Below, piece after piece: positions 33,416 to 63,463 of a DNA stretch of 64,000 bases (position 1 is the first letter of the stretch; every line of letters begins with the position of its first letter). The notes below the pieces were generated by a model that had not been told where the DNA came from, ran no database searches, and worked only from the letters and a program-made list of their open reading frames with translations. Origin of the DNA: Owenia fusiformis (taxonomy: Eukaryota; Annelida; Polychaeta; Sabellida; Oweniidae); assembly GCA_903813345.2 (NCBI GenBank), contig CAIIXF020000003.1:4118109-4182108 (forward strand), given 5' to 3'. A program made the position numbers and the translations under genes.

Positions 33416-33494
33416 TTACTATATTTTTCGTGCAAAAAGTCCATGAATCCCCATAATACTGCAAAACGCAATTACAGTATAATCAAATTTATTG

Positions 33495-33640
33495 TGTTAA
33501 ATAACACAATGATATTGATACAATGCACTTTAATATAACACAATTGATTTGATACAATGCACTTTAATATAACACAATTGATATGATACAATGCACTTTA
33601 ATATAACGCAATTGTTATGATACAATAAAATAAGGTATGA
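33495..33640 (+). repeat. Second AT-rich tandem repeat, about 43-44 bp period
   Basis: Blocks of AATATAACACAATTGATATG followed by ATACAATGCACTTT recur three to four times, adjacent to and compositionally related to the 35-bp array. Confidence 0.75.
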
Positions 33641-33913
33641 TACAATTCAAATATGATTTAAAATAAAACAATATGTACAGATACAAAACAAAACATTTCT
33701 AGAAATCAGCATACTACTTAGATTGAGGAAACCAAAAACCTTTACTTGGATCATTAAATCCCTTGCAAGTATGTAATTATCTCAGAATTATAAATAATGA
33801 TGAAAAATTACAAAACTTTAGTAATCTGCCTCTGTGCTGATTTGATTGTTTATTCTTACACTAGTTGCCTATCACCCTCCTGTAATCTATCATCCAATCA
33901 ACTAACATATATG

Positions 33914-39480: not shown

Positions 39481-39961
39481 GGTGTCTATGGACACCATCC
39501 GTGTATGATTCACTAGATATTAATATATTTTGTAATCATTGGCAAACCTTATCATATGTTGATGAGGCATAGGGTGTCTATGGACACTCTTCCGATACTG
39601 AGATATAAACACTCAGTGACTGGAATCATTGAAAATAAAATAGTGTCCATGGACACCAACATAATATAATTCTTTTGGCAAAGGTGTCTATGGACACCAA
39701 GAAAAGCAATCAGTATTTGAAAGCCACAAATTCATTAAGAAAACATAACGTCTCCAGTATTGTGATAGTGAGGAGTCTATGGACACTCATATGATAGAAC
39801 CTCCAACGTATACCTACATAATTCCCAAACAATTAAATAAAGAGTGTCTATAGACACCCTCGAACACAGCATATAATACAGGACGGCGTCTATAGACACT
39901 GCGATAACGAACACATGAAACAATAAGGTCTGTATGCAGATGAGAGGTGTCTATGGACACT
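39481..39961. repeat. Array of eight 16-bp palindromes with unrelated spacers
   Basis: Consensus GGTGTCTATGGACACC (dyad GTGTC-TATG-GACAC). Starts: 39481, 39573, 39642, 39683, 39772, 39843, 39885, 39946. Copies 1 and 4 are identical; the others differ at 1-4 positions and most keep the symmetry (copy 3 has CCATGG in the centre, copies 6 and 7 have CTATAG). Start-to-start distances are 92, 69, 41, 89, 71, 42 and 61 bp, so the first two groups of three nearly repeat a 202-bp spacing pattern although the spacers are not similar by eye. The array lies 848 bp beyond the stop codon of the ParB-like gene. It looks like an array of protein-binding sites or the subterminal repeats of a large transposon. 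It is not a simple tandem repeat. Confidence 0.85.
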
Positions 39962-40734
39962 TACAGAATCAAACATCAGATCTTACCATTTATACTGATG
40001 CGTATTTATTACCATATTAGTCATTTATATACAAAGCGTTTCGTCTCTTCAGATAAAAATTGATCTGTTTCATCATTTGTAGACAACACAGACATATTGA
40101 CATATTGACGATCAATCACAGTGTGACCATAACTAACGAAGAACATTCTTGATTCTGGTAAACAGGTGTAACACAAACGTTTGAAAAGGTAAAACAGTTT
40201 AGACGTCTAGTCCATATACGCTTGCTACAGATCTTACTAGACTTCAAACTTCAACATAATCAAACAAGCTAGCAAACATTCACTTAAGTTGAATTGCTAT
40301 CTTAGGTTTAATTATTTACAATATACATTATGGGACAAAATAATATAAATGTATACAATTTTCTTTCTTAAAATAGACAGATTACATATATGAACATTTA
40401 TCTATATGGAACCAGTAAGTCAAATAATTACATATTACATGTAATGAAATAAATTACTTTAAATGTCTATGATCGTGCGGCAAAAATACAGGAAGTGATT
40501 ATTTTATTTAAACAAGCTAATATGACAAAAAATCAGTATTTTAATAAGGTATCCCGTGGTTAAGTTTTAGACTTCTCATTGTACTCGTACATGTGCAATG
40601 GCAATGTTAAGACAAATGAGTGAGCTGGAGGTGTATGAACACGTATATGATACATAAAACAAATACCAAATTAATCAAGATGGTATGGTCTGAATATGAG
40701 TTGTCTGCATGTATACATGTAAACTATTTGTTTA

Positions 40735-40797
40735 TTTATATGTCTGGACATACAAAACAATGTCTGAACATACAAAACAATGTCTGAACATTCAAAA
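40735..40797 (+). repeat. 20-bp tandem repeat, about 3 copies, at the 3' end of the ParB-like gene
   Basis: The unit ACATACAAAACAATGTCTGA is repeated about three times just after the stop codon. The first copy contains TGTCTGGACA, a shortened form of the 16-bp palindrome core (TGTCT...GGACA). Confidence 0.75.
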
Positions 40798-40808
40798 TGC
40801 TCTTTAAC

Positions 40809-41111
40809 TTACAATTTGGATACAATTGATGACAGGCATGATATAACCTTTGCTTGGTCTTGCATCAAAGTAATTATAAGGCTATTTTTTGATATATTAA
40901 GAAACCCACTCTGGACTACAAAGAAATTTTCAATGGCAATATTGACTCCCACTTTTGCCTGGTCCTTCTTATTAATAAGACACATATTTTTGCTAATTCG
41001 GAGTAACTTATTAAACTCGTCTATCTTTGATAGCTGCCGTTGACAGTAATATATCAAGTCGTCCTCCTTCACCCCTAAAAACACGTAGTCTTCCCACCTA
41101 GCACAAACGAT
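40809..41111 (-). CDS. ParB-like gene, terminal exon
   Basis: After a TTTTGCAG acceptor, 100 codons and a TAA stop. The sequence is mixed helical, rich in Lys/Ile/Leu (for example LSKIDEFNKLLRISKN), with no recognised domain. Phase 0 with the preceding 17-codon exon (41557-41507). Confidence 0.75.
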   Translation of the reverse strand: MVCARWEDYVFLGVKEDDLIYYCQRQLSKIDEFNKLLRISKNMCLINKKDQAKVGVNIAIENFFVVQSGFLNISKNSLIITLMQDQAKVISCLSSIVSKL

Positions 41112-44100
41112 CTGCAAAACCAAAACCCACAAATTAAAACAAAATCCCTCAACCAACATTTCAAATACATTAATTAATATATTAAGATACTCTTTTTAAA
41201 ATGTTTAGTATAAATATATATATTAATTGAGGACAGAACATACCAAACGATATTTAAAATGCAAATATTTTTCTAATTTCGGTTCTTTGAGTTCGACAAT
41301 TGACAACTGTGACATGACCTAGGCCATTTGTAAACATTTATACACAAGTAAAATTAAAATGTCAAGCAATCAATGCTAAAAATGCGTTAAAGTTTTCCAT
41401 CCAAAGGTACTTCTTTCACCAGTTGTTTTACAATCAAAGTATTTGAAGAAAAGCTAAGTAAGCGCATAAAATATAGCTTCATATTTCAAATTGAAAAATA
41501 TTTTACCTCTCGAGATGATGTCTTCCCAGACTTTTTCTGCTGACTCAGGGCAGTGTGCTGAAAGCAAACAGTTTTATTTAAATAAAAATTAAATACTTGA
41601 CTTCTGCACATTATCATTTCCCCCCTCAATGTATTCCTTCCATTCAATAAATCAAGCTAGATTCACTTTGTTTAACTTGTTGACAGTCTAATTGCTCCTG
41701 GTAGAAACATTAACATGTGAACATCTAGAAGGGGTTCAAGGAATTGAGACATAACTGATCAAATCTGGTATCATTTAATGAACATAAATCTTTGTAAAGT
41801 CTATACTTTCTCACCCCTCTATCTAAAAAAGTTGTGTATGTTTGTAAAGTATGACACACCACAGGGAAGAACTATTCAAGATATGCACAACTATATTTAG
41901 AAGTCAAGACAGCACCCCTTTGTCTTAAAGTCTAGTTTCCCTGAAGTTACCATTCTCCTTTAAAGATTCTTACTTTGCAAATTGTAACAGAACATGGATT
42001 TTAGTATGATCTTCATTAAAAAACAACTATGCATGTGGAAATTCTTTCAAAATCCATAGATTCGCTTTGCCGGTTTTGTTCAAAAAAGCTTTTTACATTC
42101 AAAAGTAAGATATGTAAATCCAATTAATGCAAGATAGGTAACTGAAAGTATCAAAACGTAAGAAGGAATTCATATAACATTAGATGAGGCACATTATCAC
42201 CCTACATATATAGGCAGTAAATGTTACATGGCATTAATAAGACAATGATCATCATTAACAACATCATTTGCTGAGAAAATCAAGAGTATCAATGACCACT
42301 AGAACTGAACAGCAACCAGAAATTCAGGATATTACCCCACAAATAAAGAGGAGAAAGTTGAAGAAAGTAAAGTGATATTGAAGTGACTCATTGATTGACT
42401 TTAACATAACATAGTATCTATCTTAGATTAACATTTGGATTAGAAATTAGCATTAGCTCATTTATGGGTATTTAATCATAGTCCCTTGCTGAAATTTGGT
42501 AAGTCAATTTCACTCTCAATTCTTGACGCATTTTATCAACAGTTATGCTTTTATAAACACATACACCTTATAAAGATAAACCTTATAAGAATACTGTTAC
42601 CAAAAGTTTTAAATTGACCCTATCATAAGTTATTTTAAAGCCACAAAACTGTATTTCAGTCTTAAATAATATGCAAGGGCAATCTACTGAACATCATGTA
42701 AATAGCCCTACAGAAATGTCTGCAGCAGTTATAGCATAGGCAGATATTTGATATCTTGGTATATCACCGCATATTTTTCCAAATACGCATGTTCTAAAGT
42801 CATTCATAACTTTTTGTTTATATGGTACTGTCATGTAATTCTTGATGGAAAATATAAAGGATACCTTTATTGTTTTAATCATCAAAAAGTGAATAAATTA
42901 AAATCACTACATTCTGAGCATTTAGACTCTAAACTTGACATAATTGTAAAAAAGCCGCATGTAACTGAATGGCAGAATAAATGTGAGACTTTGTTTACTG
43001 CTGCATGGAGTAAAGCTGGAGATTTGTTTAAAAGTTCAGTTGGAAACAGCTGTGTCAACTCATAAACAAGTATTAATGTTTTCAAAAATTATTCTCAAAT
43101 GAAATTCGACAGTTTCAAATTTAGCATAATATTTACCTGTGCACTTATTGCATCACAGAGCTCATTTGTATTCACATTGTCTATCAAATTATCTGTATCC
43201 CCTGTTCTGCAATCTGAAAATATAGACAGTAGCCCAACTCACACTACGTATATAATTCCAAGACGTCTTGGCTAAAATGTTTTAGAAAATTAAATTTGAG
43301 TTTATAGGAATTATAATCGCATTTAAAAATTCAAATTATGAAGTTCTAGTGTACAGTGTGTCTCATTATATCCGTCCCCCAACCATAGTCTTTCCGAAAG
43401 CACCCATACAGCATTCTATACAGCATATTAAATCTTATTTAATTCTTAACATATAGGCCAAATATTGTCATGATTGAACAATGGAAACATAATCTTTGTT
43501 ATTAGTCACTATCATGATTGGCTTGCTTTATCACGTTACTGACATATAGATTAAAAAGAGGAGCGGCTTGCAATTAAATGTATTGTACCATGGACTTTCG
43601 ACGAGAAGAGTAGGCAACTTCCTATATTTCATACATAAGCATTGCCTTGGTTTTCAAAATTGGAGAAGATACACATTCCGAGAAAATCTTATTTTGTACT
43701 TTCTTGCTCATTTTGAAGGTCTCATGTTATAACACAGAGTTGCATACCCTTATAATTGAAAGCCCATGATTGTACATTTCAAAACAGGAAGTATTTTTTG
43801 TCTATCAAAATCGATTTGCACCCTACATCCCTACTTCTTACCCAAATATGTTACTAAATAATAGTATAATCTTTGGTTTTACAAAGTATGATATCTGATA
43901 ACTGTAAATGTTGTTTTTGGAGCATTTTTATAGCCATTTTGTAGGGATGTACAATCGTTTAATTTAAGTATGACCTGAATCGATTGCAAACATCATTTTT
44001 GCACATTTGATGAGATAAACCATTTGTGTCTTATTGTGAAATTATTAAGTTTTCAGGCCATAGTGTATTTTGGTGTTTTTGTGATAATCAATGGAAACAA

Positions 44101-47100
44101 ATTGCCTCTATTGAGATCTGATGGACATGTTAAGTCGATGGTGCACAGCCCAATGCAATTCAATACAACCTTGCTGAACTACTAGTTGACCCCTATCTCA
44201 GCCAAATGTATACCCACAGATTTAAACATTTACCCAATAATTATGTGACATCATATTCATCATGTTACACCTAAGAATGATTCATTTTGACCATTGGGGT
44301 ATTTGCCATTTATCGCACCTCATCCTTAGCATTTCTATGTCTATCGAATTAAGATGTTAACTCACCTTGAGTTGTTGCCTGCGGATCAATCTGTTGGCCG
44401 TACTTAGCTTCCCGTCGTCTTTTTGACTCTGCAATACGTAAGCAAAATGCCATCAAGTTCCAATTGAAAAATTGCACAAGGCAAAAATCGTACAATTACT
44501 ATAATTGTATTACATTTGTCAGTATAGAAATGTAGAATAGGCCTAAAGATACATTTCACTAGAAATGAGACCCAAGTTGCAATTTTTAGTCAAAGCTATG
44601 AATGAAATACCTAAATGACACTATTGGGGTAAAACACTACATGGAATTAACAGAATTTTCCATATTCCCCGCTCTCTCATTGGTCTATGCATTACAGTTA
44701 CAAAAATAAAAGACGTATTCAACAGCCATGCTTATTACAACCCAAAAAGGGTATTCACCAGTAGAATATATTCGTCCAGTACAGTGTAAATTTGAAAACA
44801 AAGTAATGTTCTCCCATTTTCTTGTTCTTATAAAACATTCCAAATAAGAAAGTGGGGGATACAAATATTCCATACAATTTTCGGTAAATTTCTATTGCAT
44901 ATCATCACTTACTAAATGCGATATCAATATCTAGAGCATGTTCATCCGTTTCCGTTCGAGCAACATCTCTACTTCGCTTCACACCAGACGTTCCGCTTTG
45001 ATCAGTGATAGCCTTAAAATAAAATATTATTCTTCTATGGATACGCGTGCAAACATTTTCAGAGTCGAATTGATGAATTATTTCTTTACTGAGTTTAACT
45101 GTCATCTATAGTTGATTATACAAAACTTACAAGTGAGGAGTCGGTTGCAGGAATAATCTCGCTGATATCGCTTACATTGCTTTGTTTTTCATAGCCTTCT
45201 GACAACCTTTTAAATTGCTTTTCAAAATCTGAAATAAAAGCATTTTTGATAAGCTTTCATTTACCATCCATCCACAGTAGCGACAGCTACGTATTTGGAA
45301 CCATGTTATTACATTTTTGTTGCATGCAATTTAGGTCGTATTGTTATTGTATAAACAATATGTTTGCCTGACCTTTTTACACATATCATTCTAATTCTAG
45401 TTCTTATACGTAGCCATAAAATACTACTATGGTGTATCTTTAAGTAATTATTCAGCCAGTGGTTATATGACTTACATAACTTTTCGTTTTTCAGCTGTCG
45501 AATAGTTTCTTTGAAATGTTCGTGCTGTTTCTGATCGAACTCTGCCTCTTTCAACTTGTTTTCAACACCAGTCAAATCAGTCTTTGCCTTTAAATACAAT
45601 TAATACAATCGTGATTATACAGATAACCAGCTCCCGTACGAGCTGAAGAAACTATCCAACCAATGTAAAACCTTGATGATTAATTCAATTTCTTTCATGT
45701 GAACACATACATTTTCTTAACAAATTAACTATAGGCTATCCTTTTTAGTTTTGAATACAAAAGAAGTATCACCAATACACTGTTGTTTTTCTTGGTTATG
45801 AACTCAAACGACTTACCACCGTCATTGGGATAACGCTTACTAGTATTAGAAACCTACCTTGGTATACATTGCCGTCATAGCAGTAAGATCTTTATTAGAT
45901 TTCCGAAGGCTGCTTTTCATATCCAAGTAACTTTTCTCAATCTAAAAACGATATTTTTATTTAGTATTTCAATTGATGTAGAGTTTGTAGGGAATTGTTT
46001 GTTAAAATAAATAGTATGTAGTATTAGTATGCTTAAAACAGTCTACACATCAATTAGTCAATTTATCAAGAGGTATCTGCAGCAATCAAGTTTTGAGGGA
46101 TCGCGTTTTTCTACTATATACCTTTGAGTAGTTATCTGACACTCTCGCCAGGTCATCCTTATATCTCATTGCATTCTGTTCTGCATTGGTCAGTTCCTGC
46201 TTACACTGAAATATGGCAGATTGAAGAATTACGGAAAATGTACCGACATATCAAAGTGAGAAGTAAACGTAATAAACATTTTTGTATAGTTTATTACATC
46301 CTGATGTAACAAGGAAATGAGCGTTTTAAAACATTCTACGCACAAATCCAACTGAAACATTATCCAAACTCAACCGTAAGCAATTGCATTTCTCAACTAA
46401 CTTTTGAAATTACTGGTGAAGGTTTATGCATACATACGTATGTTATGCTATGGCTGGTACACGTCTGATACAATATATAGACAGATAAAGGATTCTTCTA
46501 ATTGTGATCTGAAGAAGTGGATGGAGGGGGGATACCTTATTTTCGCTCGAAAATTCAACAAATCTGGGGGCATGGACCAACCCCCCTTGGATCTACTGTT
46601 TGCAGGGTATACTCTTATGTAAAGTTAATTATGATACTAGCGAATTGGAAAATACCATTCTGTATGGGTATTGATTGAAATGCAATTTTAAATCCAGGTG
46701 CCCCTTTGAACACCGAAGTGGAATTTAATATCATGTATTGGGCATATAGCATAATATTTTGTACCTGTAAATACTTAGTTGTCATAACTTCCAAGTCGAC
46801 TTTTAATTTATCCACCACAGTGTCGTCTTTAGGTCCAGATACATTCTAGCAACGCATATAAAAACAATATTATTTGATATATAAAAGAAATACAATGATT
46901 ACTTCGAAAATAGTGCTTTTAATGAAATGATTGGCTACAATTTCACCTATGTCTTCAAGGCATTTTAGCATACTTCCAGCCATTAGGTGTTGTTCTAAAA
47001 ACTAATTACTCAGTACTACTTGAAATAAAATGTGGCTAGAAACATGAATCCGATACCCCATGGTCTGTTATGTTTGTGATATATTGTCTGATATCAATTA

Positions 47101-50100: not shown

Positions 50101-53100
50101 CGTAAATACGGTCCATTGTCTGAGTGATTCATACGTTCGATCAAATGTTATTTTGGGGTATTAGTTCACCGAGTCATCTTATTGAGATTTTAGATACAGC
50201 ATGTCTGATCTATTTACAATATGTAGATTTATTTATCAATTTAAAAAATGTAATTCTTATAAGTTTGCATTTTTGCTAGATTAAAAAGACCACCTGCATT
50301 AAAGTTGATTTATAATTAAAATTAATGAGATGCATATTGGATGATCTCAACACGATAAGTACCAAGACCATTAACAGTTAGAATAACACAACCTAATGTC
50401 CAAGTGGCAATTTATGAGATAAGCAAGAACATTTACTGTGAAATATGGACACTTTGGTGTTGCATTTAATTTACAACGAGTGGTGCCTTACAGAAATTTG
50501 AGAACTATGGTGATAAGCGGAGATTGTTTGAGCATTTTAAAAACTCCATTTTGTGTAAAAATGTACAAGAACAACATTAAAATGAATGTTTACTTATTTC
50601 TATGTTGCTTGTGGACATACCTTTAGAGTTGATTGATTAAATTCAAATGTTAACGCAATTTAAATCATAGCACGAGGGACATCATACAATCAAATATTTA
50701 AAAAAGGCTTTATTTGCAAATATTTTTTTGGCTGAAAATAAGAACCTTCTGTTGTTGAAATTAATCCATAAACTCTAAAAAAGGATTAATTATACCTGTG
50801 TAAACAAAAGTCATTTCACAGATTGAATAATTAGGATTAAGGGTTTAAGCATATTATCTGTCATGTCTCAAAATATTTTTGCATCAGTTTTCTATATCAT
50901 GCACCAATTTGCTCAAAGCTTATAAATCAATTTGGTGATAAATCCAAAATTTAACACTACGTTAATCATAGCATGGGGGAAATTTCTCTATTTCCAGCTC
51001 GTTTTAAATAACTATCAAAGAAACAAAAGTTGGCCTGTCTTGCTTCTGCGAGATTTGATGATTACAGCTGAGTGTGACTGGGACTGTCAAGTTGCGTCAA
51101 TGGGTTTTACTAAAACGCAGCGTCTTAAACTGACCATCGTTATCCCGGGGATCGCGGTGTATACACTTACACCCCTATCGGCAAGAACCAGCTTATGCCA
51201 TCTACCAAAACGCACATGCCTTTTTGGCAGAGGGATCCAGGACATAAAAAGCATATTTTACGTAGAGCTTTTAACCTCGGTCATTTTATGTTTCAATAAT
51301 ATAAGCGAAGATATTTTCATATTTCATTAATTACGTAGCCCTCAATGTCTCCAGAGTGGACCTAACATATCATCTGTATTCGGTTACTTTATCTTTCGAC
51401 ACTCTATTTTTTGAAGTTATACTTTGACATTGTCACTTGACATCAACCGCTTATTGCATTTCTGAGAATACTTTATATACCATTTATCAATTATACCAAA
51501 TTTCAAATCTGGGCACTATGCCAGGGCGATCGCACCACCTCCCCATTACCAATGAAAATATAACCATGAGATAAAAGAAGAAACGAGCTTTAAAATGCTT
51601 TTTATTTGAAGCTTCGAGCTCAATTTTGAAGGAAGTTGCATCAATTTTTGTAAATTTCAGGAAAAATCTTAATTTTTTGGCTTGTTTATGCCACAGCCGC
51701 ACCCCCTGACTGAAAGCTGGCTACGCCCCTGTCAAGGTTCAGTTGCTCCACAATAAAATGACGTTTTAGTTATTAATTAATTATAACTAAGTTCATAACT
51801 TTATCCCTTATAGTTAATAACTAAAACGTCATTTTATTTAGGTAACACATGATTTCAGTGGAGCAACTGAACCTTGAGAATCAAGATTGCTTAAACGATC
51901 CAGACAAGGCATCGTGGCCAGATTTATAATTTGATAGGTATCCTATATAACCTAAATAGTCTTATATGTATGCCGAAAACTTGGTACAGATCTGTACTTG
52001 CCTTCAGGCTATTCATTTACTCCTGTTGACACTGTGTTTAGAATAAAATAATAAATGGTCCAGATACTGTTTTAGGATCTTTCTTAAATCCAGCCAGAAA
52101 CTGCACCCAATATTGAATTGCTACTATATCTAGGTTATTTGAAAATATACTAAAAAGTGAATACATTAAACATGAGCTTATGCCCATGCATTAAAGAATG
52201 ATCAAATTCTTATAAATACCAAGATTGCTTTTGTACTGTTTTTCTTTGGAGAATTAATTTGTTAACTTATTAATCATCACTTGCCCAGGGTACTTGATTA
52301 GCAGGTCTGCATAATAACTTTATGATTAGATGAACTTGCACCATTTTCAATATTAGAATAAAACCTGGATATATCAGAATTTCAGATAATTCTGATATCC
52401 GTTAATGTTCATCCAGTGTGGGCAATAAAAAGTAGGAAGGCACTGTTTTCTTCAAGCAATTCCGGGTGTTAAAAGATTCAAAAAAAGAAAAGGAAAAAAA
52501 TTTGAGAAGTCACAAATTCATAAGAAATTTGATCGCCGCAAAATTTAAAAAACTGAGAATTAGTGAATATTCATAGCCGCGAAACTTCGAAATTGCAAAA
52601 AAGTGAAATATAATAGCGTCAAATATAAGTTAGAGTAGAGTATTATATTATAAACTGTTTATGTTTTCTTATTTCCAAAATTAATAAAATCTAGAAGGAC
52701 CCCTCCCCTTCTGATATTAATAGCATAGATATGTGATAAAATACAAATATAATGATACAATATAATATGAAAGTCAAGCAAACCTCCCCCCCCCATCCTT
52801 ATTAGAACAAGCTCCCAGAGATCTTCTTTATTTGAACTCATTTCAGATAATGATAATAATATAATTTCAGATTGAAAATCATCAACTTCTAAGATGGTTA
52901 GAATGGAACGTTAGGAGTTGAGAATCATGCTTAGCGATTGAAAGCTTCTACACAAACTCCTCATACACAGTAGTAGGCTTAAATTTCAAAATCAAAGCAA
53001 TTAACGATCAGCTGTTTAAGATAAGGTGACAGCCTCATTGATTTTAGCCAGAGAAAAAATTTGAAAATTTAATGTCTTTCTGGGTCTTAATTTGGCGTTT

Positions 53101-54434
53101 CCATGAAATTTGCGAGGGTTAAAGATAAAATCAATGCTAAAATCGTTTGGTCTTATTTACTACTTACCTTTTGGATACCCCGCACTTGTTGGCACGTCGC
53201 CTTCCATGCTTCGACAAGTTTTCTATCATTAGGTGGGTCAACTGTTGTGGTCTCTATTTCTGACTTGCCCGAGAGTTGATATAGAGCTGCTCTCATTTCG
53301 CATATATTTTCCATGTAGGATTCCTCTTTGCCACTTTTCCGCACAATATTGTGGAGGTTTGCGAGGTGCCTCGCAAGATGGTTTGGCAATCCACAATACA
53401 CGATTGCATCTCTAAATCGAAACATGTTTTTTACATGTTCCGAAATAGTGTCATCGTTTAGAATAGAAAGGAACGCTTCTCTACTATGGTTTCCCCCTAT
53501 TACTTCTAATATTGTTCTTTCCCTTGAAATCACTTCTTTCGTAAATTGTTTGACATTTGGCACATTGACCAGTATAAGGTGAAAATATCCACTGGGGTTT
53601 TTGAGGAATGTTTCTTTGAGACTCTGGACATGGTTTGGATCGGGAGGGCGCACGGATCTTTCCCAAGAAGGGGCAGTCAATTTACGCACATCAACTTTGA
53701 AAATTCCACAATAGAAGTCAGACGGGTTCTCTTTCTCCGATGAGGGGGCTTTGTCATCGGGTGTCTTTAACTGGCAATGTTCCTCTATCGCAGTACAAAG
53801 TGCTGATCTGGAGGTTCTTTCCCGGACAGTCAAGCCGTCAAATATAATTTGACTGTCTTCAGAATTTGGTGTGAACGACTTTAGTAACAGGTATATCGTC
53901 GTGTTGTTTACATCTGTTGCCTGGAAACGTGTAAAAAACGTATTAGAGTGAAAACCAATTAACTGCTTCACACATAAAAGTTACGCTCCCAGATTGGGTT
54001 AATTCTAAATGGTTCAATTACTCTTTCTCAATGCACTATGAAGAATTATATTTACGTGAACGTTTTTTGCACGTGCCATATTGTATAAGAAGAATCACAC
54101 AAACGCCCTTTATACAACATCATACTTATAAATAACAATAATGAACATTATTGCCACCTTGCCGATCCTTTTTAGCGTATTAATACAGTTAAGTAGCATG
54201 AAACAAAGTGAAATCCTGGACCGGACCTTCTAGTAAAGCTTTTAATTGCAATTTCAGACAAACTTTTTAAATTAAAAAGGAGACAATCTCATGTTTTACC
54301 TTAACGGCAGTTCTAGCGTTTGCAGGCTCTATTGTTTTTATTTCTATGGCTTCGTTATTTTCCCTCTCTAGCCATATTTGCTCCTCTTTTTGGGTAATCC
54401 ACCACAAACAAGTGTTTATCATGTTATCTGCCAT
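40809..54434 (-). CDS. ParB/sulfiredoxin-fold-like protein with long coiled-coil tail (at least 14 coding exons)
   Basis: Coding exons (minus strand, in order): 54434-54300, 53920-53168, 49184-48964 (uncertain), 47777-47515, 47238-47157, 46845-46765, 46205-46122, 45941-45858, 45587-45476, 45228-45131, 45012-44913, 44428-44366, 43213-43137, 41557-41507, 41111-40809. From 47777 to the stop every junction keeps frame with good GT/AG sites. Exons 1-2 also join in phase 0. Domain order: an acidic/aromatic N-terminus, a ParB-like domain (about residues 113-240), a middle region, then a Lys/Glu/Gln-rich, probably coiled-coil tail. The tail has a basic patch SKRRREAK (a candidate nuclear signal) and a 100-residue last exon. 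Total is about 850 residues. Function is unknown; ParB-like folds occur in chromosome-partition CTPases, nucleases and sulfiredoxin. The junction between exon 2 and 49184 is out of phase, so at least one exon is missing from this model. Confidence 0.78.
43137..45587 (-). CDS. ParB-like gene, five small tail exons
   Basis: Exons 45587-45476, 45228-45131, 45012-44913, 44428-44366 and 43213-43137, joining in phases 1, 0, 1, 1, 0. The products are charged and helix-prone (for example ENKLKEAEFDQKQHEHFKE), compatible with a coiled coil, with a basic SKRRREAK patch in the fourth. Confidence 0.75.
45858..47777 (-). CDS. ParB-like gene, five middle exons
   Basis: Exons 47777-47515 (88 residues, basic centre WRKGEITKQPKQPKGK), 47238-47157, 46845-46765, 46205-46122 and 45941-45858. 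The last three have 81, 84 and 84 nt, are all phase 0, and encode heptad-like segments of about 28 residues. Such a run of near-equal symmetrical exons suggests exon duplication of a coiled-coil unit. Confidence 0.75.
47882..48122 (+). mobile_element. MITE, GGGGCGTAGCC family, copy 1
   Basis: It starts CAGGGGCGTATCCAGCTTTC and ends CATGGCTACGCCTATG, with a poly-G run after the left end and poly-C before the right end, about 240 bp. It lies in an intron of the ParB-like gene. Related copies: 51510-51731 (inverted) and 55196-55439. Confidence 0.82.
48964..49184 (-). CDS. Probable exon of the ParB-like gene (boundaries uncertain)
   Basis: An acceptor (CTTTTTTAG) opens a frame with ARYETPCMSFVELLNGSF and aromatic/hydrophobic sequence. 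To keep frame with the exon at 47777 it must stop before GTATAT (48963). A stronger donor GTAAGT (48947) would shift the frame. Its entry phase does not fit exon 2, so another small exon between 49.2 and 53.1 kb is expected. Not assigned to any domain. Confidence 0.5.
51510..51731 (-). mobile_element. MITE, GGGGCGTAGCC family, copy 2 (inverted)
   Basis: It ends on the right with GCTGGCTACGCCCCTG. The interior matches copy 3 in antisense (GCTTTAAAATGCTTTTTATT, TGAAGCTTCGAGCTCAATTT). The left end is decayed. Its right end touches the next MITE directly. Confidence 0.75.
51732..51878. mobile_element. MITE, 147 bp, with TCAAGGTTCAGTTGCTCCAC ends
   Basis: Perfect 20-bp terminal inverted repeats (TCAAGGTTCAGTTGCTCCAC / GTGGAGCAACTGAACCTTGA). 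Inside, AATGACGTTTTAGTTATTAA is also inverted-repeated around an AT-rich loop. Confidence 0.9.
53168..53920 (-). CDS. ParB-like gene, exon 2: ParB/Srx-like domain
   Basis: 251 codons between TTTCCAG and GTAAGT, phase 0 at both ends. Features typical of ParB N-terminal domains: a beta-strand segment FYCGIFKVDVRKL, a dipeptide-rich helix after DPNHVQSLKETF, a strand with LILVNV, the glycine-histidine loop TILEVIGGNHSREAFLSI (the G-G-x-H-R/S signature of ParB/sulfiredoxin folds), and a helical segment GLPNHLARHLANLHN like the family's '...A..LA..HN' region. The residue after His is Ser instead of the usual Arg, followed by Arg. Assigned by eye; a profile search would decide. Confidence 0.72.
54300..54434 (-). 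CDS. ParB-like gene, first coding exon
   Basis: ATG at 54434, 45 codons (MADNMINTCLWWITQKEEQI...), donor GTAAAA. It joins exon 2 in phase 0. The start is the first ATG after the shared divergent promoter. Confidence 0.78.
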
Positions 54435-54530
54435 GTTAGTTCAGATGAAACAAGCGCAAGTATCCTGGGTTCTTGTGCGCATGCGCTTTGACTGAACTAG
54501 TTTGAGACCCACAAGTCATTCTTACTTGCA
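54435..54530. promoter_or_regulatory. Divergent promoter shared by the ParB-like and Ubl-DUF7869-like genes
   Basis: Only 96 bp separate the two opposite ATGs, so the regulatory region and both 5' UTRs overlap, unless an upstream non-coding exon exists. TGCGCATGCGC (54476-54486) matches the NRF1 palindrome at 11 positions, typical of TATA-less bidirectional housekeeping or germline promoters. No TATA box seen. This arrangement predicts co-expression. Confidence 0.65.
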
Positions 54531-55103
54531 ATGGCGTTTCTCTACTGGTTTTTGATATGGCTTTGCCCATCATTTTATTTACTTCCATCCCCTCAAATGG
54601 ATTTTAAAATCGTCAATGAAACACAAAGGAGTGAAAATGCTATCGGTGACAAGATGCGACCATCATCTCACGATAAGGAAGACAAACGAAATTTGCCACG
54701 ATTTTATCCCGGTGACGATGACTTTAAGAAACAATGGCCATGGAGACCACTTTTTTATCCTACATCAAACTGGTTTGATTATGCCGATGATATGTCATTC
54801 AAATTAGACGAGTCTTTTTATTTAATGGAACTCCAAGATGCTCTACCATACGTCTATGCCTTGATAAACTCCGTCGACTTTATGACAGTTCGTAGAAATT
54901 TTCGTAAGTTTATGATGTACAACGACGAGGATATGATCATTGAAAAACGTTGCACAATAATATTACCAGATGGAGAAAAACTAATCGCTAAAATTCGAGT
55001 CGGTATAGATGTTGCCGAATTCAAACACATCATTCACGACAAGGTTTCCACACATTTAGGAATACCCCAGGAATTACTGCAGTTGTACATCAACGGTAAA
55101 ATG
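54531..55103 (+). CDS. Ubl-DUF7869 gene, exon 1 (N-terminus and most of Ubl)
   Basis: ATG at 54531 has a favourable context (G at -3 and +4). The first 20 residues (MAFLYWFLIWLC...) are hydrophobic; a downstream Met at 54597 would remove them. The exon ends in the Ubl domain at LYINGKM, before GTATGT. Confidence 0.8.
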
Positions 55104-58100
55104 GTATGTTGCTTTATGTACGTTTTGTAATTATTATATGATCTTTTCATTCTCGAACAATGGTGTTTAAGAAGCTTGCAATCGAATAAGACAGACAGGG
55201 GCGTAGCCAGCTTTCAGTCGGGGGGGGGGTGGGGGGGGGGGGGGGGGTTGGTGCGATTTTCAGTAAACAAGCCAAAAAATAAGATTTAATTTTGAATTTT
55301 ACAAAAATTGATGCAACTTCTTTCGAATTTGAGCTAGAAGCTTCAAATAAAAAGTATTTTAAAGCTCTTATCATTATCATTATTATATATGGGGGGGGGT
55401 GCAACGCACATATCACACACACCCCTGGCTACGCCTATGATAGGATACACCGCAACTTACAGTTGTGAAATAGATTTTATTGTGTTATGTGTAGTACTAA
55501 GCAGCCAAGTAGTTTTTACAATCATTTACATTGCATTACAGATAATTCATCAAGAGCAGATCGAGCACGATGAGATGAATATTTACGTATTGATGGGCTT
55601 GAAAGGGGGTGTGCGACAAACATCAACTCCAAGCAGAAGTGATATTTACACGCAACTTGATAGCACCCATGAAAGCTTCGCTTGCAATTGCAATGGTGCA
55701 TGCAATTGCCATATGTTTACGGGGAATCTTTCACCTATAACAAATCAGCACAAAGACGACGCTAAAACACGTGCAAGTTCAAGTACACCATTAAGAGACT
55801 CTTTCGTATATGAGAAGTCGCCCAATTTTCAGAGCTCTTCTACAATTCGGGATTCAGTCTACTTCGAGCCCTCATCTCCAATTGATTCCGTTTTCCAAGA
55901 GAAGAATACCTCCCGGGATCTGATTAATTTTGAACATTCATCCCCGATCGATTCAAACAATGGTATCAGTCTTTCTAAAGATCAACATCCACTATATGGT
56001 TCCGAGGTCGAAAAACGCCGTAAATATATTGACAATGTTACCCTAAAACGATCATTACGAGAGTCAACACAATTTGAATTTTCATCGCCTTTGGAGGAAG
56101 ATAAGACACTGGTATCTAATGGCTGTGAAACAAATGTATTTTCATTTGAAAGTGAAAGTGATTCCAGTGTGCGCAGTTGTCAAAGGGTCGATAAATCTAA
56201 ATTGAACAAACGACAATTTAAAAGAAAAGTGTCAAAGTCCTTATTCCAGCCAAGACAATCTAATGATAACAACACCGTTGTTCCACCGTACTTTGTGAGG
56301 CTCGAAGAAAGCTCGTCTTCTGAATCAGATTCGTCTGAATCAAGCGTGAATTCCCTTGAGCATGTGGGGTCGGATTTGGAAGTAGTTCAACCAAAACTTG
56401 ATAGGTCGGATGACAAAACAATTGAAGAGGCTGTCGAAATAGGTATGTTGTTTATTTACACTATGAGCACACCATATACCATGGCAAAGTCATATTTTAT
56501 TCACGGGGCCCCCAAAAGTAAAACAGGTGCTATAAATCATACTGGTGTTTGAAATGAAAAAGTATGGAATAATTGTGATCCAGTTTAGTAAAAAAACAGT
56601 TTGAAAATGAAAATGCATTTTTAATTGATTGATTTATCATAGTGCCTTAAGAGCGGTGGCACAGAAAAGTATGGTGCGAATGACAAAAATCATAGATAAA
56701 AATACATATCATAGATCAGGCCAAAACGTCCCTTCCTCATTTTATTGGAAAGAAATCTTAGATACTGGCAACATGGACGCAGAAACTACTCCACAAACAA
56801 AAAGCATCAGTATTCCACCCCTACCAGATAATTTCACTCTCTAATTGGTTTTATATCAAAGTAATCTTTCCATCAATTAACACCTCATTATGTTAACATG
56901 TTTAAGGTCTCTCTTGACCATATTGTACTAATATTTTTCAATTTTCTTGCATAGTAAATGAGAATTAAAGTGAAAAGTTCAACTTTGTCTGTCTGGATGG
57001 TGTACACAAATTGAAACTTAAAATCAAAAAACTTGAGATATGTATTTTTTATCATGAATTGAAAGTAGCATTTAAGAAAAGTTTTCAATTTGGAATAATT
57101 AAAAAGTAAAATTAGGAACTCATCAAAATTATTAAAAAGTTATAATGATTTTAAAACAGTAGGGTAATAGAAAATAAAATGGATACACATTTAACACATT
57201 AAACCAAGCATTTCTCTATAGATTTGAAAGTGTTGATTACACAGTGAAACTTCAGATGTCTTTTTCTAATTGGTTGATGAGCATGAGCCGTTTTCACAAT
57301 ATTAAAGCACAGAAATTCTTCTTTATCATTGTCTAAAAATGAAACATGTGAAAAATACATTAGTATAAATATAATGAATTTAAGAATTTTATTTAAGAGG
57401 CTTAATTAAAACTCTGACCATAGCTTAGCAGTGATTACAGTGAGAAGTAAGAGATAAACAACACACAGGCACTGGAAAGTGGTGTAATTAATCATTTAAT
57501 CTTCAGCAGAAGCAGATACACGCGGTACTAACTTCGACCGTTAATTTGAATTTTTGACCTACTGGATGTTTGAAAATCAAGGATTACGAGTCTCATAATG
57601 CACCGTTTTTCTTCAAACTTGATCCATTCAAAGCATAACAAAAATCCCTTTCTGTTGGTACATTATTCTTCTAAACAGAGTCCCTTCTTCCAGCGGCATT
57701 TTGGTCCCCAGCTGTAAGAAGGCCTTCTAACAGCTGGGGACCAAAGCACTGCTAGAACGAGGAACTCTTTACAATACAGTAATGCACCGACAGAAAGGCA
57801 ATTTTGTTTTGCTTTTAATGGTATAAGTTTGAAGAAAAACGGTGCTGTATGAGACTCGCAATCCTTGATTTTGAAACATCCGGTAGGTCAAAAAATTCTA
57901 ATTAACGGTCGAAGTTAATACCGCGTGAGATAAGCTTTGAAAAGCGAATGTCCTACTGATATGTGCTGTGCATTATATTCCACACTACATTTGAAAGTTA
58001 ATGGTTCATATAACTGCAAAATTATTTACCGATCTGTAATGGCTTAGAAGAGTACTCGTCAATTATTTAATCGAGTCTAAGTGTATAAAGTCTGATAGAT

Positions 58101-61100
58101 GACATGCTGTACATTTGATGAAACCAACATAGCTGCACACTTCCCTTAGATCAATATTCAAATAGGGTTTCAACAAGTCCCTATGTGGAGATTATAGATC
58201 TATGGCCCCATTTCAAACACATCAAATTTGTGAATCTTGAACACTTAGTTGACATTTTGCCAGTAAAAGACAGCGTTAGGCTGTTATCAGCTTCTGGAGA
58301 TATTTTTGATACTCGGTAGTACAGTAGTAGCCTTGCCCAAGTCGGTATTTTTTTACTTATCTGATCTTGAACTATTACCATAATAGAAATCAAGATAAGT
58401 AAAAGAGACCGACTTGGGCAAGGCTATTACAGTAGATATTTTCATGAAATCTGGAATAAATTGGTGAAAATATGTTTCAATAGTTTTTAAAGGAGGCCGA
58501 AACAAAACAAAAGCAAACAAAGGGAACATATGTACAAAACAGTGTTTGAATTCATTGATAATATCATAATTATTGACATGTGGTTTCTCACAGTGCAATT
58601 TTATGTAAATACATGACGTTGTTTGATCACTTTAAAGTAATTGTACATGTGATAGAGAGATGAAGCCGCTCAATGATGAATTGATTATGAATATAAAAAA
58701 TCCCAGAAAACAGAAGAGATTTAATCTTCATGATATTAATTCCATTAATTGTTGCATTGGTTAATGTAATGATTATTCTTATTAATGATACACCCCCTTT
58801 TCCTTGAGGTAGAATAATGATACTGCAATATGCCATGCAGTATCCGAGGAGGTGTGGGCTCACTGTTTGGGATATCAACAATTATAAAACTGTGCTACAC
58901 TTTCATGTATAGAACATGGAAAGTCTCAAGGGGTTGGCCTTGGGAATCTTAACCGTATTTTCTAGTTTTTTAAAAACAATTGCAGTAATTTCAGCAGTGA
59001 TTCTAATAACGTTGTAAATATTATCGCAGTACTCAAACTGAACTTCAGAACTAAAACTGCTATCATGATGCAATTTCCAAATCGTCTGTAACTCTCTTAC
59101 TTGGCAAGTTTTTGTCTGATTTTAAAGAGTTGCATTTTCAAAGAAACAGCTCTTTAGAAGAGAACTTTTAATGAAAATGGGATTGCTTCAACAAGACAAA
59201 ATATATATGGGCTGTATTCTCATTTGGTTTCAATTACGCAGGTAATCGTGTCATTTAAAAAGCCGCCTCTTTTGATTAATGGAGAGGTTAAGCTAACGAT
59301 GTTTTTCACAACGTAACCGTGAACGCAAAGTACAAAAATTAACAATTGAATGTATCGAGCGCTCATAGTTTTATGCGCGCTTAGTCTACTTCAGATACTC
59401 TTTCAGCTTCAGAGTTTCGGGTTTAGAACGGGAGATTTGAATATTTGACGTTGGGTCAACGGGAACCATTTTACTCGTGTCTATTGAACACTATGCTGTC
59501 AATTTTGATTTCGATGCACAGTTGAATTCTTGCTGAACACGATGGTGTATGTCATGCATGATTTAGCGCCAAAAATCTTACGAAACGAGCTCGTTTAAAA
59601 TATGTATTAGAAAACCAGCTATAAAACCGCATCAATGACATACTATAGAATCATTACACGCTATGGTGTAGTCTAAACAAACACTGGATTTGAACGGCTA
59701 TTTATATGAGAAGGCTACATGAATTTGTATATGGTCGAGTGATACGTACAGGTTCAGTTTCGATTATATATGCAAAGCTTAACCTCTCCATTGTTTGCAT
59801 TCTGCACATGTATTTATATTAGTTATCCGCGAAGAATTTCCTGACCATGGTAAACATTGGGCACATTTTCTGAAAAATCTGAAAAATCTGTTCAGTGACC
59901 TTTCCCAAGCTCCTACTTTTAGCTATTTTTTAGCTACATTTTCAGAGGGCTGAAAAAGTTATTTCATCATGTTTAGGGTCATTCTGACTGCATGTACATT
60001 GTGATCCTGGTCATGTAAATGATACGTGGAACTAGTTTAATTGACTGGAGTTCAAAACAGAACTCTGTTATCTTTGTTCAAAAATGTCTTTAAATGCAGC
60101 AATGTTTTGTCACTTCCTGTTTTGTTATTCCCTGTTGAGTACCACTATATATTTTCCCGATAGTTCGAGTTATTTTGTATACTTATATTCAGTAAGTAAG
60201 GTTAACATTGAATATATTAAACGTCATCCCGTCTTCCAACGTGTTAAATGTAAGAAAAGTAGTTCTAAATAAATCTGTGTATAGCTAACTCTTGCATCTA
60301 TGTTTATTTCAGCAAAGAACAAAGGCGCCAGAACATCAAAAATGCTTATACGAAGTATTCAGGGAGAGTCTATAAAGAATTGCATAGCTACAAACCACTG
60401 TTCAAATCGATGTCATGAAATACTGACATTTAATGAGATAAAACATGCAAGGGAGTCCTTTTGGACAAAAAACTTTATTCAACGTAACCAATGGTTACTT
60501 TATGAAATAAGGCTTTCAAAGCATGGAGTTGATAAACAATCGTTTAGAGTGCCTACATCATCATATTCAATAAATGTATGCTCACTTTGCTGGAGAGCAA
60601 TTTACATGATCCCCAAGCATGCATTTTATAAATGTAACAATAAAGTGGCGGAGGGATTTTTAAATTCTGCAAGAAGTTACCGGACCAAGCGGTTTTCAAG
60701 GGATGCGAAAGTTGCAGCATGGTTCAGCAACTATGTAACATTAGGCGGTTGTCGAATGCCGCACAAGAAAGTAGACGAAATCTGGCTTCCCTACAAGACC
60801 GAGTGGAAGGATGTTTACTCAAAATATAAAGAGGACATGGTTAGGAAAGATGAAATTGCTGTTTCTTACAGTTCTTTTAGGAACACAAGAAAGAAATATT
60901 TTAGCCATGTAAAGATTAAAACAGTGAGTCATTTTCTAGTACCAACATAATGTATCAACTTGTTTGACCACACTTATTTGTTTTTGATATTTTCAGTCAT
61001 AGTACCTCAGTCGTACCTGTACGCAGATGGTTATTTAACACAGTTAACAAATATTTCTTTCATGACCAGTACATCAGTTATGAAATATAATACAGTCATA

Positions 61101-61691
61101 GATATCCGACATTCTCAACATTCATCAAGAAATTGTGATATACTGTATTGTACCTTGTAGGTCTAAGTGCACGTTGGATTAAATCTAGGAGGATTTCATC
61201 CTAGTTCTAAATGCGCACATACTTAAACAAACTAAAAACAATTAATGTTCTAAAAGCCATGTCTTCACCATTTCTGACTTGTTTTGATGTCCACCTTAGT
61301 AGGGTTACTCAATCGTTTGCATTTATGTGCAATTTAGGCAAATAAATTATATAATTATAATGATTTAACATATTCGTATATGTACATTATTTGGTTCCTT
61401 GACGTTTTTGTTGATGTGCTTATAATGAATGATTTCAGACAAACTCTTTTAGTAGATGCGCCAGATGCACCTTATTAGAACGACAGGAAGAGGGTGCGAA
61501 AACCAAAGAGAGAAAATTGAAAATTGCCAAGAAGCGGGCCCTGCACGATAGACGTCAAAGGTATGATGTGAATTTGCTGTTCATCCCTTCTATTATGTAC
61601 CCTGCGCGCAGTCTAGTTATAAACTTCAACGAACCTCTTTTTAAGACATGAAGTCGAACGAATGCAAAGGGTATTTACAATGCTTTCAATG

Positions 61692-61741
<50 letters not shown>

Positions 61742-63463
61742 CCTCCCTCCCTCCCTCCCTCCCTCCCTCCCTCCCTCCCTCTCTCTCTCTCTCTCTCTTA
61801 TATGGACCTCATTTTCTATTCATTATGAGACGGTATTATATATCTTCAATTATTTTATTCGGGACAGTGAACTGCAGTAGTTGCGTAAATATAATGGGCA
61901 AAATACATTCACAAAATTGTTCTAAAAGCAAGCGTATTTTCAGGCTTGAGAGGGCTGCCTACTATGCGAGACGTGATAAATCAAAGGAAAATCCTAAGAA
62001 ATATCTTAGTATTATCATCGATGGAATGGATCAGGCCAAAACGTCCCTTCCTCATTTTATTGGAAAGAAATCTAAGGTACTGGCAACATGGATGGGTTTT
62101 CAATAATTATAACTGACTTCAATTTACACAACTGAATACTTCAGTAATTAAACACTCATTTTTACAATTGTTCATGGTCCTAGAATGTTATGGCACTTAG
62201 CAGCTTATAATTCACATTAGCATTACACGTGGCCATTATCAACAGGACACTTACCTAAAGGTTAATTGATCAGCTCTGCATTTGAGGGGTAAAACATTGA
62301 TTTAGACTTTTCATGTAAGGGAGCGGTAAACATTGGATTGTTACAAACGGCTGCATAGGTTAATTAAAGGGGCAAAGAGGTCTGTAGAGAGAAAATTATT
62401 TTTTTTACTTTTTCTGAGCTACCGGGGCAGCATTTGGCTTAACATCTTTTTTGACATATATGTTTTCTTAATATGTATGGATAATCTATCAATGTCAGCA
62501 TTAAGAAGTGTAAATTCAGTTCAAAGCTTCTTTAAAGGGAGTCCCACTCAAATATTTTTAAGATCATTCACGTTTCAAGAGGAATATCAGCTAAAATAAA
62601 GTTCATACATGATTGTTTTGGAGAAAATTAAAACATATGTTAGTCTTGATGAAATGTCCAAAATTGTATACATTTTGACACTGGTTCATGGTCGTTGAAT
62701 GGCCCCTTTGCACTAATTGTTACACCTTTAAATATTCATAGAAAATAAGACTTATTCGTTTGTCCCATTAATTGAAAGTTTGTACAAGCTGGGGGGGGGG
62801 TATACCGTATCCTCAATACATTAAATAATTCGATATTTCGATTTCAGGATTTGAATCCGCAACACTTCCTAAAGGTGCACGTATCTGGGGTCCTCAACCA
62901 TGGAACAAAGGAAGCATTGACGTATATTGATTTGTTTGAGTACCCACATGATTCCAACTTGGTGATGAATATTTTAAACAAAATTATTCTGGATATCCAT
63001 ATGACCAAGGTAATAACGTTTAATCCACACAGAAATTCTCTATAATGGGTAAATCAAGATCTAGAGAAGGCGAACTATATTTCTTACATATCATTGTGAA
63101 ATAATTCCTGGAATAAAGTAAGGACTTTTTGGAATTTTTACAAAATTGACATACCAAGGAATGATATGAGCCCAAAATATAATACAATTGAAACACTTTT
63201 TGTTTTGCTTGCTCTCTAAAATCCGATTCTCTCTCAAATAGCAAACTATAATAATTATATCATATTATAAAATAGCCTAACACGAATCACTCTGCATCCG
63301 AGAATTACGTAATATAATTATGTCGTATAGATCAATGTCTTCATTTTAGGGTTGCCATCCTCCTATATTATACCTACAGGCTGATAATTGTTATCGAGAA
63401 AACAAGAACAAGTATTTGCTAGGATTCCTCGATATGTTGGTACACGCAAGAATATTTCACGAG
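54531..63463 (+). CDS. Ubiquitin-like domain fused to a DUF7869-like domain (partial, 3' end beyond window)
   Basis: Exons: 54531-55103, 55542-56442, 60313-60923, 61439-61560, 61944-62076, 62848-63009, 63350-63463. All junctions are in phase (872 residues so far). Order: a hydrophobic N-terminus; a WPWRPLFYP-containing region; a ubiquitin-like domain (141-214) ending LMGLKGG; a Ser/Asp-rich linker with CNCNGACNCH and repeated FE-SSPID motifs; a Cys-containing helical region (CSNRC..., INVCSLCWRAIY); a basic RRQR/ERAAYYARRDKSKEN stretch; then a domain with IIIDGMDQ (D762, D765), EYPHDSN (H814, D815) and LYLQADNCYRENKN (D846, E851). The last pattern resembles uncharacterised DUF7869-type proteins, where similar Asp motifs recur. 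I infer, without proof, a metal-dependent RNase H-like or transposase-like fold. The gene continues past 64 kb. Confidence 0.8.
55196..55439 (+). mobile_element. MITE, GGGGCGTAGCC family, copy 3, inside intron 1 of the Ubl gene
   Basis: Left end CAGGGGCGTAGCCAGCTTTC, right end CTGGCTACGCCTATG, poly-G tract after the left end. It occupies more than half of a 438-bp intron that splits the Ubl domain. Confidence 0.85.
55542..56442 (+). CDS. Ubl-DUF7869 gene, exon 2 (Ubl C-terminus, Ser-rich linker)
   Basis: It opens IIHQEQIEHDEMNIYVLMGL then KGG, completing a 74-residue ubiquitin-like domain ending in Gly-Gly, followed by VRQTSTPSRSD. The rest is low complexity: CNCNGACNCH, four imperfect repeats of a RDSVYFEPSSPIDS type, and SSSSESDSSESS. 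The donor AG|GTATG at 56443 leaves phase 1, matched by exon 3. Confidence 0.82.
56643..56795 (+). pseudogene. Relic duplicate of exon 5 (DUF7869-like) in intron 2
   Basis: 56714-56776 is almost identical to 62029-62092 in functional exon 5 (it includes GATCAGGCCAAAACGTCCCT), and extends past the donor. The upstream part is only weakly similar. The donor GT is changed (TTAGATACTGG instead of AAGGTACTGG) and the IIIDGMD codons are lost, so it cannot be spliced or work as the original. High identity over 63 bp suggests recent duplication or gene conversion. Confidence 0.8.
57520..57926. mobile_element. Foldback element, 407 bp
   Basis: Arms of about 190 bp: ACGCGGTACTAACTTCGACC on the left pairs with GGTCGAAGTTAATACCGCGT on the right. 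AAACGGTGC... and GGTCCCCAGCTGT/ACAGCTGGGGACC form inner arms around the centre near 57722. No clear target duplication seen. Confidence 0.9.
58321..58434. mobile_element. MITE, about 114 bp
   Basis: TAGCCTTGCCCAAGTCGGT and ACCGACTTGGGCAAGGCTA are inverted arms. The outer TACAGTAG/CTGTAATA edges and flanking TA suggest a Tc1/mariner-type MITE. Confidence 0.85.
59278..59792. mobile_element. Non-autonomous TIR element, 515 bp
   Basis: 16-bp ends AATGGAGAGGTTAAGC (59278-59293) and GCTTAACCTCTCCATT (59777-59792). The interior is GC-richer than the surroundings and has no open frame of note. Confidence 0.75.
60313..60923 (+). CDS. Ubl-DUF7869 gene, exon 3 (Cys-containing helical region)
   Basis: Acceptor TTTATTTCAG; two bases complete an Ala codon from exon 2. 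It encodes 203 residues with CIATNHCSNRCHEI, a helical FWTKNFIQRNQWLLYEIRL segment, INVCSLCWRAIYMIPKHAFYKC and a segment with DEIWLPYKTEWKDVYSKYKE. The 'C-x-x-F/W-x-x-x-(Y/L)xI' block is characteristic of the N-terminal half of DUF7869-type animal proteins as I remember them. Donor GTGAGT, phase 0. Confidence 0.82.
61439..61560 (+). CDS. Ubl-DUF7869 gene, exon 4 (basic linker)
   Basis: Acceptor GATTTCAG, donor GTATGA. Encodes CARCTLLERQEEGAKTKERK and further basic residues up to ALHDRRQ. It may bind nucleic acid or form a nuclear signal. It was found by phase and splice sites only, since no ATG frame covers it. Confidence 0.78.
61698..61799 (+). repeat. (CT)n-(CCCT)n-(CT)n microsatellite
   Basis: A compound microsatellite in intron 4, about 100 bp. 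The serine/proline/leucine-rich open frames across it are artefacts. Confidence 0.95.
61944..62076 (+). CDS. Ubl-DUF7869 gene, exon 5 (IDGMDQ motif)
   Basis: The acceptor ATTTTCAG is followed by one base completing Arg, then ERAAYYARRDKSKEN and SIIIDGMDQAKTSLPHFIGK; donor GTACTG, phase 0. D762 and D765 are candidate metal ligands. A relic copy lies in intron 2. Confidence 0.85.
62848..63009 (+). CDS. Ubl-DUF7869 gene, exon 6
   Basis: Acceptor CGATTTCAG, 54 codons, donor GTAATA, phase 0 at both ends. Contains FLKVHVSGVLNHGTKEALTY and a EYPHDSNLVMNILNKI segment with conserved His and Asp. Confidence 0.85.
63350..63463 (+). CDS. Ubl-DUF7869 gene, exon 7 (DN-C-ENKN motif)
   Basis: Acceptor TTCATTTTAG, 38 codons, donor GTATCA, phase 0. 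Encodes PPILYLQADNCYRENKNKYL and GFLDMLVHARIFHE. The Q-x-D-N-C-x-x-E-N-K-N block is the most recognisable signature of the family. The next exon is not in the window. Confidence 0.85.

Follow-up and report, generated by a model that had tools for sequence, protein, structure and literature searches.

The window examined here, 64,000 nucleotides of the genome of the annelid Owenia fusiformis (C3:4118109-4182108, where C3 and similar handles denote contigs of this same genome), holds most of a 28,077-bp unit in which a ParB-like gene and a DUF7869 gene diverge from a common promoter, flanked by arrays of 16-bp palindromes. Judged by its structure, the unit is a mobile DNA element with three dispersed copies at unrelated sites. 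On C3 it spans 39262 to 67338, in a numbering that continues that of the window to the right beyond 64 kb ("extended" below), and its last 3.3 kb lie past the window edge. These limits follow from the finding of a right array and of inverted repeats outside both arrays; the preliminary description of this locus had ended the unit too early, at 63463. Exon models of both genes were predicted from splice sites, using the sequence alone. The features are as follows.

39258..39261, no strand: left copy of the 4-bp target site duplication ATTT; second copy at extended 67339-67342, just past the right end
39262..39414, plus strand: left terminal inverted repeat; partner at extended 67186-67338
39481..39961, no strand: left array, eight 16-bp palindromes RGTGTCYATRGACACY; nine further sites at extended 66617-67148 inside the right end
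40809..41111, minus strand: ParB-like gene, last exon (14), with stop; 55% identical counterpart on C10
41507..47777, minus strand: ParB-like gene, exons 3-13; one stretch resembles a coiled coil, with no more than weak Pfam coiled-coil matches
53168..53920, minus strand: ParB-like gene, exon 2 (251 residues), resembling the ParB N-terminal domain (GGNHS..A, HNxV)
54300..54434, minus strand: ParB-like gene, exon 1 with start codon
54435..54530, no strand: shared divergent promoter region, 96 bp, between the two start codons
54531..55103, plus strand: DUF7869 gene, exon 1, holding the first part of a ubiquitin-like stretch
55542..56442, plus strand: DUF7869 gene, exon 2, where the ubiquitin-like stretch ends (...LKGG)
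60313..60923, plus strand: DUF7869 gene, exon 3
61439..61560, plus strand: DUF7869 gene, exon 4
61944..62076, plus strand: DUF7869 gene, exon 5, carrying D762 (IIDGMDQ), the likeliest first catalytic D
62848..63009, plus strand: DUF7869 gene, exon 6, carrying D808 (YID), which could be the first D instead
63350..63463, plus strand: DUF7869 gene, exon 7, with the second putative catalytic D, D846 (QADNC.REN)
extended 64290-64943 and 65336-65518, plus strand, beyond the window: DUF7869 gene, exons 8-9, with GHTHED (E885)

The two divergent multi-exon genes and their 96-bp shared promoter agree with the preliminary description. The ParB-like gene runs from 54434 to 40809 and encodes 761 residues in 14 exons, with GT-AG at every intron, and the DUF7869 gene starts at 54531 and encodes 1,150 residues in nine exons (seven in the window and two past its edge) with one terminal stop. 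Within the promoter, TGCGCATGCGC at 54476-54486, flanked by AGTTCAG/CTGAACT inverted repeats, resembles an NRF-1 site. Long hairpin-like inverted repeats, perhaps small nested transposons, occur in introns of the two genes (57519-57927 and about 51735-51878), and a piece of about 65 bp from DUF7869 exon 5, donor site included (62026-62092), is duplicated in intron 2 (56711-56777), as it also is in the C7 and C12 copies. Outside the element, the window carries tandem arrays of 13-bp and 34-35-bp units at 29640-30709 and 33113-33647.

Full copies were found on C3 (28,077 bp), C7 (28,385 bp, inverted) and C12 (31,147 bp), and over long aligned pieces the C7 copy is 98.5-99.6% and the C12 copy 96.2-98.5% identical to that on C3. 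All three are bounded at both ends by terminal inverted repeats of about 155 bp (approximately 153-159 bp, 93-94% identical) that start with AACAGGGTGCAAAAC... (a start also given as AACAGGGTGCAAAACTAAAAG), and all three are flanked by 4-bp target duplications that differ in each case: ATTT on C3, and CGAA and ATAT for the C7 and C12 copies. The 3-kb flanks have only a 91-bp and a 37-bp match in common, both between the left flanks of the C7 and C12 copies, and are otherwise unlike, which argues that the copies inserted independently and did not arise by segmental duplication. An interspersed repeat in the C3 right flank (extended 67514-68568) recurs about 6 kb outside the C7 copy, out of register with the element. 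The large mobile element with a subterminal array that had been suspected from the window alone is thus borne out, with copies at different places that share termini and carry the palindrome, although with arrays at both ends rather than one. Membership of the Kolobok superfamily was considered and rejected: Kolobok elements duplicate TTAA, in contrast to the duplications observed here.

The C7 copy lies in an interspersed repeat, and a paralogous empty repeat with an element-free junction exists. When the C7 flanks were joined without the element, 38 non-self matches were listed, 73-85% identical, among the best 40 of 111 candidates scored; 18 of these 38 run uninterrupted for at least 7 bp across the junction. 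No empty site was seen for the C3 insertion, for which the single other match lay wholly on the right flank. Element ends without a partner were also found, at C4:15705519, C12:25447687 and, in shorter form, C2:16835991.

Both genes are intact in two of the three copies, C3 and C7, between which they differ by seven synonymous changes and one non-synonymous change, from synonymous and non-synonymous sites in a ratio of about 1:4. The ParB-like gene of the C12 copy is also intact, with ten synonymous and nine non-synonymous changes relative to C3; its DUF7869 gene is not, as exon 1 is interrupted by a nested insert of 4.1 kb and exon 3 is altered in length. The insert (C12:2970467-2974579) bears inverted termini rich in G, GGGGGGGTGTATAGAG, and a 6-bp duplication, TTTGAT. 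As the copies are recent and two of the three hold both genes intact, the domesticated derivative that the preliminary description had also entertained is disfavoured.

The eight palindromes of the left array were recovered as described: GTGTCYATRGACAC occurs eight times at 39482-39960, six times exactly and twice with one mismatch, and the window contains 16 matches to the 16-mer at no more than three mismatches, a number reached by none of 100 shuffles (mean 5.1). The last left 16-mer ends at 39961, 847 bp short of the ParB-like stop codon (40809), and the right array of nine sites begins 2.6 kb beyond the right edge of the window. In all, the C3 copy has 17 sites (eight left, nine right) that fit RGTGTCYATRGACACY, 14 of them exact in the core and three with one change. 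Site spacing is 41-92 bp, and the arrays start 220 bp (left) and 191 bp (right) inside the element ends. The asymmetric sites are mirrored about the centre of the element, reading TATGG on the left (5/5) and CATAG on the right (7/7). Between the C3 copy and those on C7 and C12, the sites show one mismatch in 544 aligned positions, compared with 28 in 2,612 other bases of the same end regions.

Across 498 Mb, two exact sites 55-85 bp apart occur in 23 places, of which 21 are in the three copies, one is on C10 and one on C44; the reversed-pattern control gave none. The C44 pair (C44:5798-5880, on a small contig) has the spacing of the left array and could represent a second haplotype or a partial copy. 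Exact sites number 62 genome-wide, and the positions of 50 of these 62 are considered here. Single sites on C2 and at C5:5387133 were taken for chance, the reversed-pattern control giving three. Three cluster loci on C11 are 93-99.7% alike over many kilobases, and the clusters on C5 and C11 are loose, with no recognisable termini. The C5, C10 and C11 clusters were tried as non-autonomous copies and rejected, as no matching termini were found at seven loci (at best eight or more mismatches in 29).

The C10 locus appears to be a diverged remnant of the element. It holds the last exon of the ParB-like gene, 55% identical, with an array 0.6 kb past the stop, where the array DNA aligns only in short stretches; gene and array have therefore been kept together at one diverged place.

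The DUF7869 protein is most likely a DDE-type transposase. Its match to Pfam PF25273 (DUF7869) covers residues 780-963 at E=1e-63 (214.9 bits against a curated cut-off of 26), and the acidic residues have a DDE-like spacing, D762-84-D846-39-E885. D846 and E885 are invariant in eight aligned paralogue fragments, as is D762 in all five fragments that cover it. The N- and C-terminal regions of the protein are long and the C-terminal one is basic. The preliminary description had called this protein a fusion of ubiquitin-like and DUF7869 parts. The latter is clear; for the former, four weak PDB matches were obtained (E 0.08-0.67, cut-off E up to 10), one of them named ubiquitin-like and the other three (S27a, eL40, FLJ35834) being ubiquitin fusions or ubiquitin-like, and the Pfam search of the protein returned no ubiquitin family. 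The KDZ family, of which Pfam has a model, was likewise not among the Pfam matches of the 1,150-residue protein at E up to 10 with HMMER filters on. A scan of viral contigs with the last domain of the protein gave no match.

The ParB identity proposed for the 761-residue protein is not established, and ParB-like is kept here as a label only. Exon 2 and four relatives, of which two share 97.7% of their DNA sequence, have in common E-[VI]-[LI]-G-G-N-H-[ST]-x-x-A and H-N-x-V, whose order resembles that of the GERRxxA and ENLQR motifs of ParB. No ParB match was found with hmmscan in Pfam, NCBIfam or PHROG, phmmer and hmmsearch yielded no credible PDB relative, and tblastn on phages and a viral-contig scan returned nothing convincing. 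Aligned by hhalign to ten plasmid ParBs, five sequences (two near-identical) scored 20.5, and the highest-scoring of 50 column shuffles reached 19.9. No DNA-binding domain was recognised in the library searches, Pfam included.

The head-to-head arrangement recurs in this genome, as had been anticipated. At least 95 DUF7869 matches were grouped into 43 clusters, and searches with two ParB-like proteins gave 18 ParB-like loci, 15 of which have a divergent DUF7869 cluster 9-22 kb away (chance of such pairing about 0.4% per locus); the unpaired loci are at C12:30.33M, C4:28.98M and C3:8.56M. The 15 paired loci, some of them on small contigs (possibly second haplotypes), form five or six families (3, 1, 1, 1, 4 and 5 loci), the last two being 80-92% alike in DNA, and the exon-2 identity of these families to the C7:28.7M member is 25-46%. 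Two DUF7869 subfamilies other than that of the element, with five loci each (on C1, C2, C3, C4, C6, C9, C12 and C66) are 93-99.5% and 98-99% alike within 3 kb; nine of their ten loci are paired with a ParB-like gene, and they too are likely to be recent transposons. At C1:37273560, C3:13188520 and C1:37182263, DUF7869 lies in single open frames of 988-1,005 residues with no ParB-like partner, and C3:8559467-8626403 holds decayed ParB-like (50-66%) and ubiquitin-like (55-67%) pieces of an old related family.

Taken together, we consider it reasonably probable that the unit is a recently active and probably autonomous giant cut-and-paste transposon, with the DUF7869 protein as its transposase and the ParB-like partner acting at the arrays to pair the ends, to control the shared promoter, or both. 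In this scheme the transposase would cut at the inverted repeats and insert with a 4-bp stagger, and the partner, which bears a coiled-coil-like stretch, would sit as a dimer on the 16-bp palindromes of the two arrays. Once bound, it could bring the element ends, 28 kb apart, into contact so that they can be cut, regulate the 96-bp promoter, or do both. Binding of the arrays by the ParB-like protein is suggested because the C10 remnant keeps its last exon with an array. A wider proposal is that DUF7869 marks a so far unrecognised superfamily of giant eukaryotic DNA transposons built around a divergent two-gene module, in which a DDE transposase works with a protein of ParB fold; the latter would load onto parS-like arrays, mirrored at the two ends, and pair these ends. 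We put this forward tentatively and think it rather unlikely as a whole; if true, a bacterial segregation-type clamp would perform transposon end synapsis in a eukaryote.

Several observations weigh against these proposals. D762 lies 18 residues ahead of the Pfam match and so outside it, and the first acidic residue might instead be D808, which is invariant in all seven fragments spanning it. The profile comparison of the DUF7869 protein with PDB gave no credible relative (the best, an unrelated synthase at E=0.014, was taken as chance), so that the DDE fold is a reading of motifs. ParB homology is near noise: the five-sequence score barely exceeds the best shuffle, and with a three-sequence alignment hhalign did not beat the shuffles. 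Near the C10 remnant, genome searches found no match to exon 2 or DUF7869, the last exon alone being recognised. The palindrome clusters on C5 and C11 have no detectable ParB-like or DUF7869 coding matches; the preliminary description had counted an array without the genes as evidence against such a unit, and these clusters, here taken as relics, go part of the way towards it. At the sensitivity used, 28 of the 43 DUF7869 clusters lack a ParB-like match, so that a partner cannot be taken as a requirement of all DUF7869 elements. Arrays were not seen for the other paired families in the DNA read, which stops short of their ends, nor for family F3 in 1.65 kb more read downstream. A scan for palindromes present at least three times in 3-kb DUF7869 loci (at most two loci per family) found none, but carries no weight, being blank also for the element's own locus, L040, which ends before the array.

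The alternative that fares best is that the DUF7869 transposase itself binds the arrays and that the ParB-like protein counters silencing, regulates the shared promoter or does something similar. We regard this as possible but not probable. The Ac/hAT transposase binds subterminal repeats, and the long terminal regions of the DUF7869 protein, one of them basic, could serve such a role; the ParB-like protein offers no recognised DNA-binding domain, and the many DUF7869 clusters without a detectable partner point the same way. Against it, a 16-bp dyad would suit a dimer such as a coiled-coil protein, and the C10 remnant keeps the last ParB-like exon by an array, a weak argument as the DUF7869 gene would sit at the other end and may have been lost. 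It is improbable that the arrays are instead parS-like partition or maintenance sites, on which a ParB-like, cytidine triphosphate-dependent clamp would load and spread, helping an excised or extrachromosomal form to persist or segregate. Arrays of 16-bp palindromes beside a ParB-like gene, and a compatible motif order in exon 2, are what this would predict, but there is no ParB profile match, the Pfam matches of the two gene models include no ParA-like family, and opposite-facing arrays at both ends suit end pairing better. Because site orientation is mirrored, a role at the ends is favoured over partition. Finally, long multi-exon genes with a shared promoter might suggest two host genes with an array at their promoter, or a domesticated derivative that now stays in one place, but three near-identical copies with the same termini and different target duplications and flanks refute this as far as one genome allows, leaving it next to no probability.

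The element is of a kind already known, namely giant DNA transposons with accessory genes, and it may already have a Repbase entry. DUF7869, a family without assigned function for which no paper naming it was found in the literature searched, gains a suggested one, as a likely transposase that is multi-copy here. Because the 28-kb element is young, has intact copies and precise ends, and offers a defined array of candidate binding sites, the joining of distant ends in very large DNA transposons also becomes directly testable. The literature searched for ParB with transposable elements and horizontal transfer in animal genomes, and for ubiquitin-like domains in a transposon context, gave none in either case. 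A survey of the ParB fold gives sulfiredoxin as the commonest eukaryotic form, and the string "transpos" is absent from its main text (PMC12704722); the available text of a review of giant transposons names no such element (PMC6431247).

Among known systems, bacterial ParB-parS resembles the element in having a ParB-like gene beside 16-bp palindrome arrays; homology is not established, and the present sites differ in lying at both ends of a eukaryotic transposon. The nearest functional model is En/Spm (CACTA), in which TNPA binds the arrays and TNPD is the transposase, so that there, too, a transposase is accompanied by a second protein on short repeats inside both ends. The En/Spm termini are different, however, as are its 3-bp duplication, its non-palindromic 12-bp motifs and its proteins, which are unrelated. 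Sola elements make 4-bp target duplications, as does the present element. KDZ giant transposons, at up to 30 kb, likewise carry accessory genes (PMC12477816, in the text available), and differ in that the present protein has no KDZ match in Pfam. The closest precedent found is Sola1-1_Ec32 of Ectocarpus, a giant DNA transposon of 21.5 kb that encodes a ParB-like domain protein opposite its transposase (PMC12477816); bivalve curated Sola1 elements average 5.4 kb in the text available (PMC10294476). The ParB-like domain of Sola1-1_Ec32 is joined to a DNA methyltransferase, none of which was detected in the present gene models, and the string "palindrom" does not appear in the main text of that report, which cites similar proteins in green and red algae and suggests that accessory proteins of this sort might bind the transposon that encodes them and modify it (PMC12477816). 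Giant size and a ParB-like gene on the strand opposite the transposase are nevertheless common to both, and with an algal Sola1 that has such a protein with a methyltransferase, ParB-like accessory proteins as a recurrent solution also become testable.

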